A stretch of 64,000 nt of DNA from Bacteroidota bacterium (lineage in GTDB: Bacteria > Bacteroidota > Bacteroidia > Chitinophagales > LD1). Positions 51,923 through 59,633 of the stretch are shown one piece after another. The stretch covers positions 124,001 through 188,000 of the forward strand of contig JAFDYN010000007.1 in the NCBI GenBank assembly GCA_018267385.1. Direction: 5' to 3'. The notes under the pieces were generated by a model. It saw only the letters and a list, made by a program, of their open reading frames with translations. It made no database searches and was not told the DNA's origin. The first letter of the stretch is position 1; the number at the start of each line of letters is the position of its first letter. The translations under genes were made by a program, and so were the position numbers.

Positions 51923-54900
51923 ATGAAAAAACTTAGACTTCTCACCACAGCTGTACTCATTATTCTGGCTACGGGGCTATTCGCTCAGTCGTCAGTGCCG
52001 CTGGGTATCAGCTACCAGGCCGTGGTGCGCAATGCGCAGGGATCGGTCGTATCAAACACTGCGGTGTCTGTACGCTTTTCCATCCACGATGTCTCACCTA
52101 CCGGAAACATTATTTTTCAGGAAACCCACCAGGTCACTACTAATCAGTTTGGCCTTGTCAATGCTGTGATAGGCAGTGGTAATGCGAGTGGTATTTCCAA
52201 CCTGGCCGACGTGAGCTGGGGAGTAGGCGACAAATACCTGCAGGTAGAAGTAGACGTAGCTGGTGGTACCAACTATGTAGATATGGGTACCTCCCGTATG
52301 ATGAGCGTTCCTTACGCATTATTTGCAGCTAGCGGTATAGGTGCCACAGGCGCTACCGGTGCTACCGGTGCCGTGGGCGTTACCGGTGTTACTGGCCCTG
52401 TGGGTGCTACCGGTGCAACAGGCGCTGTGGGTGCTGCAGGTGCCGATGGCGCTACCGGTGCTACGGGTCCTGCCGGTGTAGCTGGCCCTACGGGCGCAGC
52501 TGGGGCTGATGGCGCTACCGGTGCCGCAGGCGCAGTAGGTGCTACAGGCGCCACTGGCGCAGATGGCGCTACAGGTGCAGCTGGTCCTACCGGCCCTACG
52601 GGCGCAGACGGTGCTACAGGTACAGCCGGATCAGATGGTCTGACAGGCCCTACCGGTGCAGATGGGGCGCAAGGCCCGACCGGCCCTACTGGTGCCAATG
52701 GAGCTAATGGTACTAATGGTATAAATGGTGCTACGGGTGCTACTGGTCCTGCCGGTGCAGATGGTATCAATGGCACAAACGGTGCTACGGGTGCCACAGG
52801 TGCTACCGGCGCTGCGGGAGCTAACGGTGCCACAGGCGCCACTGGTCCTGCCGGTGCAGACGGTATCAATGGCCTGAACGGTGTCACAGGTCCTACTGGT
52901 CCTGCAGGCTCTGTAGGCTGGCCTGGTGCTACTGGTCCTGATGGTGCTACCGGCCCTACTGGCCCGGCAGGTGCTGATGGCGCAGTAGGTCCCCAAGGCC
53001 CCGCTGGTGCTGACGGTGTAGACGGCGCAGTAGGTCCACAAGGCCCTCAAGGTCCGCAAGGTCCTGCAGGAGCTGATGGCGTAGACGGTGCTGTAGGTCC
53101 ACAAGGTCCTCAAGGCCCGGCTGGTGCTGACGGCGTAGATGGCGCAGTTGGTCCTCAGGGTCCTCAAGGCCCTGCAGGTGCTGACGGCGTAGACGGTGCT
53201 GTAGGTCCTCAGGGTCCTCAAGGTCCGGCAGGTGCTGACGGTATAGATGGCGTAGACGGTGCAGTCGGTCCTCAGGGTCCTCAAGGTCCGGCAGGTGCTG
53301 ACGGTATAGATGGTGTAGACGGTGCTGTAGGCCCGCAAGGTCCTCAAGGCCCGGCAGGTGCAGACGGCGTAGACGGTGCAGTTGGTCCTCAGGGTCCTCA
53401 GGGCCCACAAGGTCCTGCCGGTGCTGACGGTATAGATGGCGTAGACGGTGCAGTTGGCCCACAGGGTCCACAAGGCCCTGCAGGTGCTGACGGCGTAGAT
53501 GGCGCAGTAGGCCCGCAAGGTCCTCAAGGTCCGGCTGGTGCTGACGGTATAGACGGCGTAGACGGTGCAGTTGGTCCTCAGGGTCCGCAAGGCCCGGCAG
53601 GTGCTGATGGTGTAGACGGCGCAGTAGGTCCGCAAGGTCCTCAAGGCCCGGCAGGTGCTGATGGTGTAGATGGCGCAGTAGGTCCACAGGGTCCTCAGGG
53701 CCCACAAGGTCCGGCAGGTGCTGACGGTATAGATGGCGTAGACGGTGCAGTTGGCCCACAGGGTCCACAAGGCCCGGCAGGTGCTGACGGCGTAGATGGC
53801 GCAGTAGGCCCGCAAGGTCCTCAAGGTCCGGCTGGTGCTGACGGTATAGACGGCGTAGACGGTGCAGTAGGTCCACAAGGCCCGCAAGGTCCTCAAGGCC
53901 CGGCAGGTGCAGACGGCGTAGACGGTGCAGTTGGTCCACAAGGCCCGCAAGGTCCTCAAGGCCCGGCAGGTGCAGACGGCGTAGACGGCGCAGTAGGTCC
54001 ACAAGGCCCTCAAGGTCCTGCTGGTGCTGACGGCGTAGATGGCGCAGTAGGCCCTCAAGGTCCACAAGGTCCGGCCGGTGCTGACGGTATAGATGGCGTA
54101 GACGGTGCAGTAGGTCCACAAGGCCCTCAAGGTCCACAAGGTCCGGCAGGTGCTGACGGCGTAGATGGTGCAGTAGGTCCTCAGGGTCCTCAAGGTCCTG
54201 CGGGTGCTGACGGCGTAGACGGCGCAGTGGGTCCACAAGGTCCTCAAGGTCCTGCTGGTGCTGATGGTATAGACGGTGTAGACGGCGCAGTAGGTCCTCA
54301 GGGTCCTCAAGGTCCGGCTGGTGCAGACGGTACTAACGGAGCTACCGGTCCTACAGGCCCTACAGGCAGTGTCACAGGTACCGCTAATGCTATTGGCCGT
54401 TTCGATGGCAGCGGCAATCTGGGAAGCAGTGCAGTGATTTCTGACGACGGCACGGACGCGACAATCTCTGGTGGACTGACTGGTACTACTTCTGGTACTG
54501 TAGCAGCGCGCTTTACAGCTACCGGTGTAGCATCGGCTACTTATGGAGTGGATGGATACGGTCAAGGCTCCGGCAGCTTTGTGAATTATGGTGTCAGTGG
54601 TACAGCCAGCGGCGGATTCATCAACTATGGTACTTTTGGATATGCTAATGGTAGCGGAACTAACTACGGTGTGTATGGCAATGCAAGTGGCGGCGGTACT
54701 AATTATGCTGGTTACTTTAACGGTGACGTGACAGTGACAGGTACATTTACCAATCCATCAGATCAAAAGCTGAAGAGAGATGTACAGCCTATGTCAAATG
54801 CACTGGCTAGCCTCAGGATGCTCCGTGCGGTGCAGTACTACTATCGTACTGATCTGAGCAATATGAAACTCGCATCAGGTCTGCAGTATGGATTCATAGC

Positions 54901-55141
54901 ACAGGAGCTGGAGAGGATATATCCTACACTCGTGAGGGAGCAGGTCAATCCGGGAGGCATAGACCCTATCACCAAGAAGCAGTATCAGGCTATCACTTAC
55001 AAGTCTGTAAACTATACAGGCCTGATACCTGTAGTAGTGAGCGCTGTACAAGATCAGCAGAATCAGATAGACGCACAGCAAAAGCAGATACAAGACCTGC
55101 AAAAGCAGATCGAAGAACTCAAAGCGCTGCTTAAAAAATAA
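51923..55141 (+). CDS. Collagen-like protein with S74 intramolecular chaperone tail
   Basis: 1072 residues. Signal peptide [22 protein letters not shown]; an N-terminal domain (about 23-137; [27 protein letters not shown]) shared with the next gene; uninterrupted Gly-x-y triplets from about 138 to 816. The first half is Thr/Ala-rich (GAT, GPT), the second a run of about 23 near-identical 18-24 residue units ([18 protein letters not shown]). Glycine-rich head repeats (about 850-935) lead to a Peptidase_S74 domain (about 940-1030) with S946 in [10 protein letters not shown] and a C-terminal coiled coil ([12 protein letters not shown]). Such chaperones trimerise fibres and then cut themselves off. 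No T9SS tail. Confidence 0.9.
52977..54341 (+). repeat. Tandem coding repeats of collagen-like gene 1
   Basis: About 23 in-frame units of 54, 63 or 72 nt encoding AVGPQGP(QGP)AGADG(IDG)VDG. Units differ by whole triplet-of-codons steps and scattered third-position changes. The units make long false open frames on the opposite strand. Confidence 0.85.
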
Positions 55142-55171
55142 ACAAGCTGATATTCACAGATAAATGATCTT

Positions 55172-55206
55172 AAAGCCCCGTCTTTTTAGATGGGGCTTTT
55201 TTTGTC
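55172..55206 (+). terminator. Intrinsic terminator between the collagen-like genes
   Basis: Stem AAAGCCCC(GTC) at 55172-55182 and GGGGCTTT at 55192-55199 followed by TTTTTTT, 31 bp after the stop of the first gene. Confidence 0.85.
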
Positions 55207-55345
55207 ATATCACGCGGACACAGACAGCTTTACAAAAGTTTGTTGTATCAAGGCATTTACCAGGCGAAAGATTTTACCGAAAAAGCAGTAATGCCTTTTT
55301 CGCAATGTGTATCTTCACTGCACTTTTCAACTCAAATTTTCCTAC

Positions 55346-57604
55346 ATGAAAAAACTAAAACTCCTTACTACAGCTGTTTTATTGTCCACGGTGGTATGGG
55401 TATCTGCCCAGGCTCCTCAGGGCATCAGCTATCAGGCAGTCGTGCGCGATGCACAGGGTGCTATACTCCCCAATACTCAGGTGGCCGTCCGGTTTACGAT
55501 CCATGACGGTACCTCCGGCGGCAATATCGTTTTTCAGGAAGTACATCAGGCTTCCACAAATCAGTTTGGCCTTTTCAATGCTATAATAGGTGGCCTGAAT
55601 GGCACCGGCATAGGCAATCTTAGTGCCGTAAACTGGGGCACCGGAGCCAAATACCTGCAGGTAGAAGTAGATATCACAGGCGGCAGCAGCTATACAGACA
55701 TGGGCACCTCGCAGATGATGAGTGTACCATATGCACTGTTTTCAGGCAATGGCATAGGATCTACGGGTGCTACAGGAGCCACCGGTGCCGCAGGTCAGAC
55801 CGGTGCTACGGGTGCTACGGGCCCTACTGGTGCTGGTGCTACGGGCCCTGCAGGTGTGGCTGGTACTGATGGCGCTACCGGTGCCACAGGGGCTACTGGC
55901 CCTACAGGCGCGGTGGGTGCTACAGGATCAGCAGGCAATGATGGCGCTATGGGCGCTACAGGTGCCACCGGTCCAACCGGTATTGGTGCTACCGGCCCTG
56001 CCGGGGCAGACGGTACAGACGGTGCTACCGGCCCGACTGGTACCGCAGGCTCGGATGGTCTGACGGGCCCTACAGGTGCTGATGGTATAGATGGCGTAGA
56101 CGGTGCAGTAGGTCCACAAGGCCCACAGGGTCCTCAGGGTCCGCAAGGCCCGGCAGGTGCTGACGGCGTAGACGGTGCAGTAGGCCCACAAGGCCCGCAA
56201 GGCCCGCAAGGTGCTGACGGCGTAGACGGCGCAGTAGGTCCACAAGGTCCACAGGGTCCACAAGGCCCACAGGGCCCTCAAGGTCCGGCAGGTGCTGATG
56301 GTATAGATGGTGTAGACGGAGCAGTAGGCCCTCAAGGTCCTCAAGGCCCGGCAGGTGCTGATGGCGTAGATGGCGCAGTAGGTCCACAGGGCCCACAGGG
56401 TCCGCAAGGCCCGGCAGGTGCTGATGGTGCTCAGGGTCCTACCGGCCCTGCTGGTGGTGCTACGGGTCCTACTGGTCCGGCAGGTGCTGACGGCGTAGAT
56501 GGCGCAGTAGGTCCACAAGGCCCTCAAGGTCCACAAGGTCCTGCAGGTGCTGACGGTATAGATGGCGCAGTAGGTCCACAAGGCCCTCAAGGTCCGCAAG
56601 GTCCTGCAGGTGCTGACGGCATAGATGGCGCAGTAGGTCCACAGGGCCCACAGGGTCCGCAAGGTCCTGCAGGTGCTGATGGCGTAGATGGTGCAGTAGG
56701 TCCGCAAGGTCCTCAGGGCCCTCAAGGTCCTGCAGGTGCTGACGGTTTAGATGGCGCAGTAGGTCCTCAAGGCCCTGCAGGTGCTGATGGCTTAGATGGT
56801 GCAGCAGGTCCACAGGGCCCACAGGGTCCGCAAGGCCCGGCAGGTGCTGATGGTGCTCAGGGTCCTACGGGGTCTGACGGTCCTACCGGCCCTGCTGGTG
56901 GTGCTACGGGTCCTACTGGTCCGGCAGGTGCTGACGGCATAGATGGCGCAGTAGGTCCGCAAGGTCCACAAGGTCCTCAAGGTCCGGCAGGTGCTGACGG
57001 CATAGATGGCGCAGTAGGTCCACAAGGCCCTCAGGGTCCGCAAGGTCCTGCAGGTGCTGACGGTATAGACGGCGCCGTAGGCCCACAAGGTCCTCAAGGT
57101 CCTGCCGGTGCCAACGGTGCTGCAGGCCCGACTGGTCCTGCCGGCACTAATGGCACGACCGGTGTGACTGGTCCTACCGGCCCGGTGGGCGCACAAGGTC
57201 CTGCGGGCCCTACAGGTGCGGGAGTTGCCGGTCCTACTGGTCCTACCGGTGCGGCAGGTTCTGCAGGCGCACAAGGTCCTACTGGCCCTACAGGTGCGGC
57301 AGGTACTATTTCTGTGACCACGGTATCCGTTACGAATACAATACTCTCTACAGCCAGCCAATTTGTGCTCGTATCGGGCGCTATCAATGTGAAGCTGCCG
57401 GCCTCTCCGGTCACGGGTCAGATCCTGTATTTCTACGCTGATAATAACTCGTCTACTATAGATCCCAATGGCCAGACTGTACATCAGCAGGGCAATGATT
57501 ATCCGGGACTTTCGACCTTTGTAGATTTTGGCACCAGTTCTACGCATGCGCTCACGCTGATCTTCAATGGGTCAAAGTGGTATCCGCTTGCTGAGGGATT
57601 TTAG
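55346..57604 (+). CDS. Second collagen-like surface protein
   Basis: 752 residues from the ATG at 55346, which begins the signal peptide [22 protein letters not shown]; the frame extends 13 codons upstream without a signal-like start. The N-terminal domain (about 23-135) parallels that of the preceding gene ([16 protein letters not shown]). Gly-x-y triplets run from about 138 to 650, again with a GAT/GPT part and the [10 protein letters not shown]...GADGIDG block. The end is different: about 100 residues of strand-rich sequence ([21 protein letters not shown] ... [12 protein letters not shown]), resembling a capsid- or TNF-like trimer cap, with no S74 domain and no T9SS tail. Confidence 0.87.
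56080..57112 (+). repeat. Tandem coding repeats of collagen-like gene 2
   Basis: In-frame repeats of the same family as in the first gene, many with the variant [21 protein letters not shown], interrupted by two [12 protein letters not shown] spacers. The nucleotide similarity to 52977-54341 is high enough for recombination between the genes. Confidence 0.8.
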
Positions 57605-57712: not shown

Positions 57713-59047
57713 ATGTACTACAATCGCAAAATAGCGCTCACCACTCTCGGCTGCAAGCTCAACTACAGCGAGACCTCTGCCATCGGCAGGGCGCTGTCGG
57801 AGCATGGCTACCAGCGCGTAGACTTCTCCGAGCGGGCAGACTACTATGTGATCAATACCTGCTCCGTCACAGAGAATGCCGACAAGCAGACCCGCTACGT
57901 GGTCAAGACCGCCCTCCGCACCAATCCTGATGCAAAGGTGATCGTCATCGGCTGCTACGCTCAGCTGAAGCCAGACGAAATAGCCTCCATCCCCGGTGTG
58001 AGCATGGTACTCGGCGCCAACGAAAAATTCAAGCTGCATGAACATCTGGATAAACTGGAAGAAGCCGAAGCACCCGTTGTACTAAACGGAGCCATAGACG
58101 ATGTGGCTTTCTACAGCGATGCCTTCTCTCACGGTGACCGCACCCGTACCTTCCTCAAGGTGCAGGACGGCTGCGACTATATGTGCTCTTTCTGCACCAT
58201 ACCATTAGCCCGTGGCAAGAGCCGCAGCAACTCTATCGCAAAGACCATAGAGCTCGCGCAAAAAGCCGCAGCCACTGGCGTGAAGGAGATCGTACTCACA
58301 GGAGTCAACCTCGGCGACTTTGGCAAAACACCCGATGGCAATGAGCGCACCTCGGAGAACTTCTACCAACTTATTCAGGAGCTGGAAAGGATAGAAAGCG
58401 TGCAGCGTTGGCGTATCTCCTCCATCGAGCCCAATCTCCTCACAGACGAGATCATAGCCTTTGTAGCAAAGTCAGATAAGTTCGCACCGCACTTTCACAT
58501 ACCTCTGCAGAGTGGTAGCGACCGTATACTCAAATATATGCGCCGCAAATACCTCACGCCGCTCTATCGCGAGCGTGTAGAGACGATCAAGAGGTTAATG
58601 CCACATGCTTGTATTGGTGTAGATGTCATCGTTGGTTTTCCCGGCGAGACGGATGAAGAGTTTCGCACCACCTATGATTTCATCAACTCGCTGGATGTCT
58701 CTTACCTCCACGTCTTCACCTACTCCGAACGCGCCAATACCCGCGCCCTAAATATCACTCCCGTAGTACCCAAGGCCATACGCAAAGAGCGCAACGAAAT
58801 GCTGCGTATCCTATCGGAGAAAAAGAAACGCGCCTTCTATGAGCAGCACCTCAGCACCGAACGCCGCGTACTCTGGGAGATGGAGAATGATGGCGGTACC
58901 ATGTACGGCTTCACCGACAACTATATCAAAGTCGGTACACCACACGATGAGTCTCTCTCCAAGACCATGCAGACTGTACGCCTCACAGATGTGGCAGGCT
59001 CAGGCTTTGTAAAGGTGGAGATGAGTGGTGAGGTCGCGGCGCTTTAG
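57713..59047 (+). CDS. mtaB: tRNA (t6A37) methylthiotransferase MtaB
   Basis: 444 residues. It converts t6A37 of ANN-decoding tRNAs to ms2t6A with radical SAM chemistry. The N-terminal UPF0004 domain has its three cluster cysteines C14, C50 and C81; the radical SAM motif is C154-x3-C158-x2-C161 (CDYMCSFC); a short TRAM-like C-terminal region ends in GSGFVKVEMSGEV. The order TLGCKLN...SET is the MtaB rather than MiaB pattern. Its TAG overlaps the TAA of the convergent toxin gene by bases 59044-59047. Confidence 0.92.
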   Translation: MYYNRKIALTTLGCKLNYSETSAIGRALSEHGYQRVDFSERADYYVINTCSVTENADKQTRYVVKTALRTNPDAKVIVIGCYAQLKPDEIASIPGVSMVLGANEKFKLHEHLDKLEEAEAPVVLNGAIDDVAFYSDAFSHGDRTRTFLKVQDGCDYMCSFCTIPLARGKSRSNSIAKTIELAQKAAATGVKEIVLTGVNLGDFGKTPDGNERTSENFYQLIQELERIESVQRWRISSIEPNLLTDEIIAFVAKSDKFAPHFHIPLQSGSDRILKYMRRKYLTPLYRERVETIKRLMPHACIGVDVIVGFPGETDEEFRTTYDFINSLDVSYLHVFTYSERANTRALNITPVVPKAIRKERNEMLRILSEKKKRAFYEQHLSTERRVLWEMENDGGTMYGFTDNYIKVGTPHDESLSKTMQTVRLTDVAGSGFVKVEMSGEVAAL

Positions 59048-59331
59048 GCTAACTTAGATCCAAGTATGAAGCGATATACTGTAAAATCGTATCCTTTGAT
59101 CTGATAGGCTACGATCCATTTTTGTCTATAGGTAAAACATCTATAACCGCGGCGGGCGAGTGCTTCGTTTTGACAGATAGCGTGCAGCACTCCTGAGCGT
59201 GCAGCCGATTGCAACGTTTCTATGATTCTGCTGAACCACCGATCTCCGGCACCATCCGTGTTGATCATATTTACCCACGCCGCAGTATCAGCTATAGCAT
59301 TAGCGGCATTTTTCCTTATCACCAGATTCAT
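59044..59331 (-). CDS. RelE/ParE-family toxin
   Basis: 95 residues. IADTAAWVNMINTDGAGDRWFSRIIETLQSAA, then RRGYRCFTYRQKWIVAYQIKGYDFTVYRFILGSK resemble the RelE/ParE fold with its four-strand sheet (ending YRFILGSKL). It likely cleaves mRNA at the ribosome or blocks gyrase, which the sequence alone does not settle. It overlaps the antitoxin stop by 4 bases and lies downstream of it. Its end overlaps the end of mtaB. Confidence 0.8.
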   Translation of the reverse strand: MNLVIRKNAANAIADTAAWVNMINTDGAGDRWFSRIIETLQSAARSGVLHAICQNEALARRGYRCFTYRQKWIVAYQIKGYDFTVYRFILGSKLA

Positions 59332-59633
59332 GCACGTTTCCGCTGGGATTTTAGCTCCTCGTATCGCTTTCTCATATAGTCGAGCGCCTCATCACCAGAT
59401 AGAAATTCGTCTTCCTCATCTCTGTCCAACCATTCTTCTACCTGCTCTCTGGTAGGCACCCTGCCACCTGGGAGCGCCATTTCTTCATCTGTGAGCGGAG
59501 CATCATGCAAGACATCGGCGATCCTATCTTCTGCAAAATCCAGCAATACTTTTTTCAGCGCCTCGAGGATACGGGCGTCCTCGATGAGGTCTATTTCTCT
59601 TTTGATCCTTTCTTTTTCGAGCGTCAGATTCAT
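59328..59633 (-). CDS. Antitoxin of the RelE/ParE-type pair
   Basis: 101 residues, acidic in its second half (DAPLTDEEMALPGGRVPTREQVEEWLDRDEEDEFLSGDEALDYM) with an N-terminal helix (ERIKREIDLIEDARILEALKKVLLDFAEDR) that could mediate dimerisation. No classical DNA-binding domain is obvious. Its stop and the toxin start overlap by 4 bases, as in typical type II toxin-antitoxin operons where the antitoxin comes first. I cannot name the antitoxin family. Confidence 0.75.
   Translation of the reverse strand: MNLTLEKERIKREIDLIEDARILEALKKVLLDFAEDRIADVLHDAPLTDEEMALPGGRVPTREQVEEWLDRDEEDEFLSGDEALDYMRKRYEELKSQRKRA

Follow-up and report, generated by a model that had tools for sequence, protein, structure and literature searches.

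Among the described systems closest to the genes reported here are the mosaic adhesive trimer (MAT) fibres of Bdellovibrio bacteriovorus, which, in the available part of PMC10769870, carry an N-domain of the kind considered below and end in S74 (SDxxxK) or other tips, with 21 MAT paralogues per genome. The words 'collagen' and 'Bacteroidetes' each occur 0 times in the main text of that source. Bacterial collagen-like adhesins (Scl1/SclA, Scl2/SclB, Lcl and Pasteuria Pcl) form a second related group, in which a Gly-X-Y stalk stands beside non-collagen parts; PMC6460258, going by the available part, deals with polymorphism in Lcl. A third is formed by phage tail fibres with an S74 chaperone. A literature search on concerted evolution of bacterial collagen-like genes returned no paper, and in the accessible portions of related literature we noticed no case of collagen stalk exchange such as that proposed here.

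We describe two tandem genes, A and B, which on balance we think encode MAT-like fibres with collagen stalks, the stalk cores evolving in concert at the shared locus. The stretch of DNA analysed (the window, 64 kb) is positions 124001-188000 of contig C25 in a host genome of 4.55 Mb and 27 contigs. Gene A occupies 51923-55141 (+ strand, 1072 aa) and gene B 55346-57604 (+ strand, 752 aa counted from ATG, in a frame already open upstream from a GTG at 55307). The original prediction had placed two collagen-like genes with a common N-terminal domain here; the open reading frame list confirms its coordinates, and the two N-domains share 64% of their residues and 68% of their nucleotides. Both proteins run from a signal peptide (assigned by eye) through a beta-rich N-domain and a Gly-X-Y stalk to a tip, with the following features:

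51923..52336, + strand: signal peptide of gene A (by eye) followed by its beta-rich N-domain, the proposed anchor; sub-cut-off Bdello_MAT_N match, alignment, A-locus orthologues 79-95% nt identical
52337..52981, + strand: gene A N-proximal Thr-rich Gly-X-Y flank, last heptad GPAGADG (52961-52981); unbroken sister-species alignment up to 52980
52982..54331, + strand: gene A stalk core of PQ-type units, from unit positions; TN-type units at the sister's equivalent
53309..53592, + strand: gene A segment with a second copy at 53606-53889, 94% identical by self-comparison
54332..55138, + strand: C-flank of gene A and its S74 tip, whose end looks by eye like a coiled coil; Pfam S74, SDQKLK at 54758-54775, PHROG tail-fibre matches
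55172..55199, + strand: terminator-like hairpin in the A-B intergenic region, a stem of 12 pairs followed by a run of T
55346..55753, + strand: signal peptide (by eye) and N-domain of gene B; N-domain alignment, sub-cut-off Bdello_MAT_N match, AF2 pLDDT 83
55754..56086, + strand: gene B N-proximal Thr-rich flank, last heptad GPTGADG (56066-56086); unbroken sister-species alignment up to 56085
56087..57118, + strand: gene B stalk core of PQ-type units and two AQGPTG...GGATGPTG islands, from unit positions and self-comparison
57119..57601, + strand: C-flank of gene B followed by its cap (57305-57601), for which the sister species shows 84% aa identity and no Pfam family scores above cut-off

Above cut-off, Pfam assigns Collagen (1.9e-100) and Peptidase_S74 (4e-12) to A and Collagen alone (7.6e-71) to B. 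The Gly-X-Y run of A is unbroken over 678 residues, and Lys and Arg are absent from both stalks. A scan for terminator-like sites found 3, against 3.2 expected from shuffles, and no RNA family reached its gathering score within the 64-kb window. The pair is flanked by a divergent PKD/CHU_C protein gene and by a radical SAM gene, which we take to be mtaB. From this layout A and B would be exported, surface-anchored and probably trimeric fibre adhesins, in which the beta-rich N-domain would fix the fibre at the cell, the collagen-like stalk would lengthen it and the tip, different on each, would bind a target.

The link to MAT fibres, whose superfamily is characterised by a beta-rich domain of about 130 aa directly behind the signal peptide, comes through the N-domain. 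The profile Bdello_MAT_N (NF053851) was matched at E<=0.01 by 26/26 N-domains (best 1.8e-12), a set made up of the 2 from the window and 24 from records picked for likeness to them, with matches spanning about half of the profile. The two window domains score 28.7-37 bits against a curated cut-off of 60, which is reached by 0/16 of the N-domain copies in the host genome, and 0/14 control genomes gave any match. With the N-domain of B as query, matches were obtained in 34/40 genomes, host included. An AF2 model of the gene B domain has a pLDDT of 83; no clear fold relative emerged from the PDB (Foldseek best E 2.6e-3; VIA-align best Z 6.7). The host genome holds 18 collagen ORF pieces, and since one gene is split by a run of 114 N and two pieces lie at contig ends, the number of host collagen genes is 16 to 18. 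Three N-domain copies were seen without a collagen match, two near each other at G000:C24:76356-78262 and one at G000:C7:43431-43805.

A and B resemble MAT fibres in that a signal peptide is followed by a beta-rich N-domain that is conserved, by a fibre and by tips of several kinds, S74 with SDxxxK among them. Paralogues are also numerous in both cases, 21 per genome being given for Bdellovibrio in the available text and 16 N-domain copies being counted here. They are unlike curated MAT members in their sub-cut-off N-domain scores, and unlike MAT fibres in the stalk, which is collagen-like Gly-X-Y instead of an intertwined trimeric beta-prism; a short beta-prism could be present in tip A. Because the beta-prism fibre was not found, we do not file A and B as MAT members. 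Provided that they are surface-located and trimeric, A and B would function in the manner of MAT fibres in which collagen serves as the stalk. Sequence comparison also connects collagen fibres of Bacteroidota with the anchor domain of the fibres that Bdellovibrio uses in predation.

The tips follow the MAT pattern, that of A being an S74 domain with SDQKLK (residue 946) and that of B a non-S74 cap, with no S74 match and no Pfam family above cut-off. This bears out the difference between the C-terminal ends that had been predicted, S74 in one and another cap in the other; the description of the B cap as strand-rich is not borne out, its structure model having been set aside at pLDDT 38. A Phage_depo_C match to the B tip (Pfam E 0.039) lay under cut-off and was not used. 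Like phage tail fibres with an S74 chaperone, the A tip matches PHROG tail-fibre families (best 6.9e-24). Unlike them, it sits on a signal-peptide protein with a chromosomal paralogue family, and 0/3 of the neighbouring genes scanned are phage genes. In the sister species the B cap (57305-57601) is 80% identical in nucleotides, compared with 95% for the B N-domain.

With the collagen-like adhesins A and B have in common a long Gly-X-Y stretch beside non-collagen parts, and they differ from them in both N-domain and tips. The NCBIfam SclB equivalog scores above cut-off on gene A (51923-55138; 350 vs 325 bits), apparently through the Gly-X-Y repeats. The LPXTG cell-wall anchor that is a feature of this equivalog (Scl2/SclB) is absent from A and B, making the match a likely source of wrong annotation.

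Both stalks show the predicted common unit design, GAVGPQGP(QGP)AGADG(IDG)VDG. Gene A has 23 unit starts spaced 15-24 residues apart and gene B 14, with the same spacing except for one of 30 and two that contain islands (43 and 49). Exact self-tracts extend to 92 bp (A) and 63 bp (B), lengths matched by 0/200 codon shuffles under either of two nulls, one amino-acid-only and one context-preserving (positional codon use kept). Each gene also carries a block duplication, in A of 53309-53592, found again 297 bp further (94% over 284 bp), and in B of 56435-56643, found again 444 bp further (94% over 209 bp). The predicted likeness of units at the DNA level within each gene is upheld by the self-tracts, and the predicted expansion inside each gene by self-tracts and duplications together. 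Homogenisation peculiar to A and B was rejected: among the 31 of 41 collagen ORF pieces with enough sites for the ranking, 26/31 arrays had a codon excess at <=1/200 shuffles, B ranking 13th and A 20th.

The longest tract that A and B share exactly measures 47 bp, a length matched by 2/200 amino-acid-only and 42/200 context-preserving shuffles. Tracts of at least 36 bp number two, matched by 12/200 and 136/200 shuffles respectively. Recent conversion between A and B is therefore not to be read off exact tracts, which are in no excess under the context-preserving null. The DNA likeness from which exchange between the genes had been predicted does not bear it out, and support for exchange comes from the comparison across species given below. 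Exact sharing of at least 24 bp between the A/B stalk DNA and 15 other collagen loci amounts to one 24-mer only.

The shortness of these tracts bears on another explanation, that draft metagenome assembly fused the repeats of A and B or joined them wrongly. Contigs do stop inside collagen arrays (C4 and C5 of the host; C6 and C11 of G004), and N runs lie within the collagen of L010, L013 and L014. A mis-join would leave long identity, however, and the longest exact A-B identity is the 47 bp of the window and 29 bp in the sister cores; moreover, the window contains no N. We consider an artefact of this kind very improbable. The gaps inside arrays are at L010 8946-9059 and L013 4862-4950, and contig ends fall in L012, L014, L027, L032 and L035. 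Repeat counts are unsafe in draft assemblies of such collagen genes, and since arrays with long exact repeats may have failed to assemble, those recovered may be biased towards higher divergence.

Three relatives were compared, all draft MAGs with one genome per species: SZAS-58 (G001), the sister species, whose N-domains are 95% nt identical to those of the window, SZAS-59 (G004) and UBA1941 (G005). Outside the stalk cores, the pieces listed are 86-93% nt identical to the window in SZAS-58, 81-84% in SZAS-59 and 79% in UBA1941 (a long upstream piece). In the sister species anchors and tips are kept and both stalks are built of a different, TN-type unit, TNG/TDG/VTGPT. In UBA1941 A is PQ-type, like the window, and B is TN-type, with tips different from those of the window, while in SZAS-59 both arrays are interrupted by contig ends. 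A third, GPM-rich unit type in SZAS-59 was discarded, being visible only near contig ends or as a short stretch.

The change lies in the cores. Among the pieces listed of the sister alignment (>150 bp), high identity in A ends at 52980 and in-register alignment resumes at 54185, with only out-of-register pieces of 62-70% between. B has no in-register alignment over 56086-56833 and resumes at 56834, inside the second island. Both 5' breaks (52980 in A, 56085 in B) fall at most one base from where a GP(A/T)GADG heptad ends, and the 3' edges are less sharp. The N-domains are 79-95% nt identical among A orthologues, 76-95% among B orthologues and 68-75% between A and B; they track their locus, so the anchors have not been converted. 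The number of units varies among the species, the stalk length in triplets being 226, 200 and 191 for A and 170, 154 and 178 for B in the window, sister and UBA1941 respectively. The Thr share of the stalk is 6-8% in window A and B and 6% in UBA1941 A, against 20-23% in sister A and B and UBA1941 B. The exact PQ motif occurs in 2/30 family genomes, host included, with 22 copies in window A, 11 copies in window B and 15 copies in UBA1941 A. The exact TN motif, likewise in 2/30, has 15 copies in sister A, 5 in sister B and 8 in UBA1941 B; neither motif was found elsewhere in these 30.

To place A and B among other stalks we used 17 reciprocal best orthologue pairs between the host and the three relatives (N-domain >70% nt) and cosines of 3-triplet spectra. 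The five host-sister pairs, from a sister genome 77% complete in which 3/8 loci fetched gave no collagen ORF under the filter, have cosines of 0.06 for A, 0.08 for B and 0.91, 0.59 and 0.88 for the others. Six host-G004 pairs, five of them truncated in G004, range over 0.08-0.80, and six host-UBA1941 pairs give 0.59 for A, 0.03 for B and 0.05, 0.08, 0.47 and 0.08 for the others (one truncated). By these spectra stalk turnover is general at larger distance, and the joint change of both neighbours between sisters is unlike the three other sister pairs. Within one genome, A against B gives 0.81 in the window, the highest among 153 stalk pairs of the host, 0.75 in the sister and 0.02 in UBA1941. 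UBA1941 A has cosines of 0.59 to window A and 0.62 to window B, and UBA1941 B of 0.74 to sister A and 0.77 to sister B. The A/B stalk differences from the sister species suggest that neighbouring fibre genes can exchange stalk repeats.

Codon use in the heptad GPAGADG gives some indication of direction. Its fifth codon is GCT in A-locus arrays (window 20/24, UBA1941 16/17, sister 17/17) and mostly GCA in the relatives' B-locus arrays (UBA1941 7/8, sister 4/7). Window B has GCT in 14/14 and a consensus heptad identical to that of window A, which fits units moving from A to B in the window lineage; by these codon signatures, locus A appears to be the source of the window B units. By heptad, window B is nearer to window A than to the B arrays of the sister (4/5000) or UBA1941 (0/5000), and by heptad alone no nearer to window A than to UBA1941 A (3052/5000). 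Units of window A and B are nearer to each other than to UBA1941 A by a nearest-3 statistic (5/2000 and 11/2000 label shuffles) and an all-pairs statistic (13/2000 and 55/2000), in comparisons that, like those of heptads, rest on 6-24 units each with several tests uncorrected; among 18 unit-comparison statistics only the smallest (5/2000) is <0.05 after Bonferroni correction. Bootstrap intervals for a unit being nearer to the neighbour gene than to UBA1941 A are 0.008 to 0.131 for A (zero excluded) and -0.018 to 0.097 for B (zero included).

In the sister species, codon identity between A and B is at the amino-acid-only expectation in two of three segments (0.432 vs 0.434, 0.460 vs 0.472) and above it in the third (0.459 vs 0.408), so a plain copy from B to A is not shown. 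The sister A heptad is nearer to window A than to UBA1941 B (1/5000) and only marginally nearer to it than to its own B (314/5000). UBA1941 B is nearer to sister B than to sister A in one TN segment (14 and 75 of 2000), the other being unclear (594 and 255 of 2000). The sister A array combines TN units with A-type heptads and has a codon excess of 0.204, 8th of 31; it appears to be chimeric and may be a young array that grew from a chimeric founder.

Two of the three sister codon identities are also what would be expected if A and B had inherited the same minor flank seeds and each species had amplified one separately, perhaps for shared stalk chemistry. TN-like seed units are indeed present in the flanks of window A and B, and the host stalks L010 and L021, on different contigs and not neighbours, are alike in unit protein (cosine 0.76) without shared codon use. 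Such convergent amplification sits poorly with the codon signatures common to window A and B. The confinement of both exact motifs to the A/B locus in 30 family genomes makes a chance pick of the same unit by two neighbours unlikely, and we regard this explanation as unlikely overall. Replacement of whole stalk cores, or of the whole locus, through homologous recombination with PQ/TN-bearing lineages would account for the occurrence of both types in UBA1941, which has 79% nt identity over its long upstream flank, for its different tips and for the lower identity of the sisters' B cap than of their B N-domain (80% vs 95%). On the other hand, sister B aligns unbroken outside the core in the pieces listed (93% before; 86% after, from 56834), the sister A heptad retains the A-type GCT codon in 17/17 and a search within the family found no donor; we give such replacement little credence.

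Under concerted evolution within the pair, the reading we favour, stalk cores would turn over through unequal recombination inside each gene, and units would also cross between A and B with junctions at the GP(A/T)GADG heptads found in both unit types. The present arrangement of UBA1941, with A built of PQ and B of TN units, may be the ancestral one. PQ units would then have spread from A to B in the window lineage, and in the sister lineage TN sequence would have entered A, where a chimeric unit, still with the GPAGADG half of A, would have formed and then expanded. More tentatively, and with rather less confidence, PQ and TN might be stalk cassettes that different species retain as exchangeable modules of two tandem fibres, moved between the neighbours by recombination at the shared heptad. 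Both fibres would then switch together between a Thr-poor and a Thr-rich, possibly glycosylated core, while anchors stay and tips swap on a slower clock. The locus would be a natural case of a bacterial fibre whose anchor, stalk and tip evolve separately, and for that reason the use of collagen stalk sequence, as opposed to length, becomes testable in existing relatives.

Some minor features of the locus were also noted. At the radical SAM gene, G003 has a different adjoining collagen gene, and no collagen gene was seen in the corresponding stretch of G002. A stretch of 28-30 codons from the end of the radical SAM gene occurs a second time near it in two relatives, at G004:C11:340401-340490 and G001:C18:5501-5584. 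Long open antisense frames cross the repeats on the minus strand (52631-54565 and 52956-54236), probably a mechanical outcome of repeated codons. Two small overlapping ORFs of 95 and 101 aa at 59044-59633, minus strand, look by eye like a RelE/ParE-type toxin-antitoxin pair.
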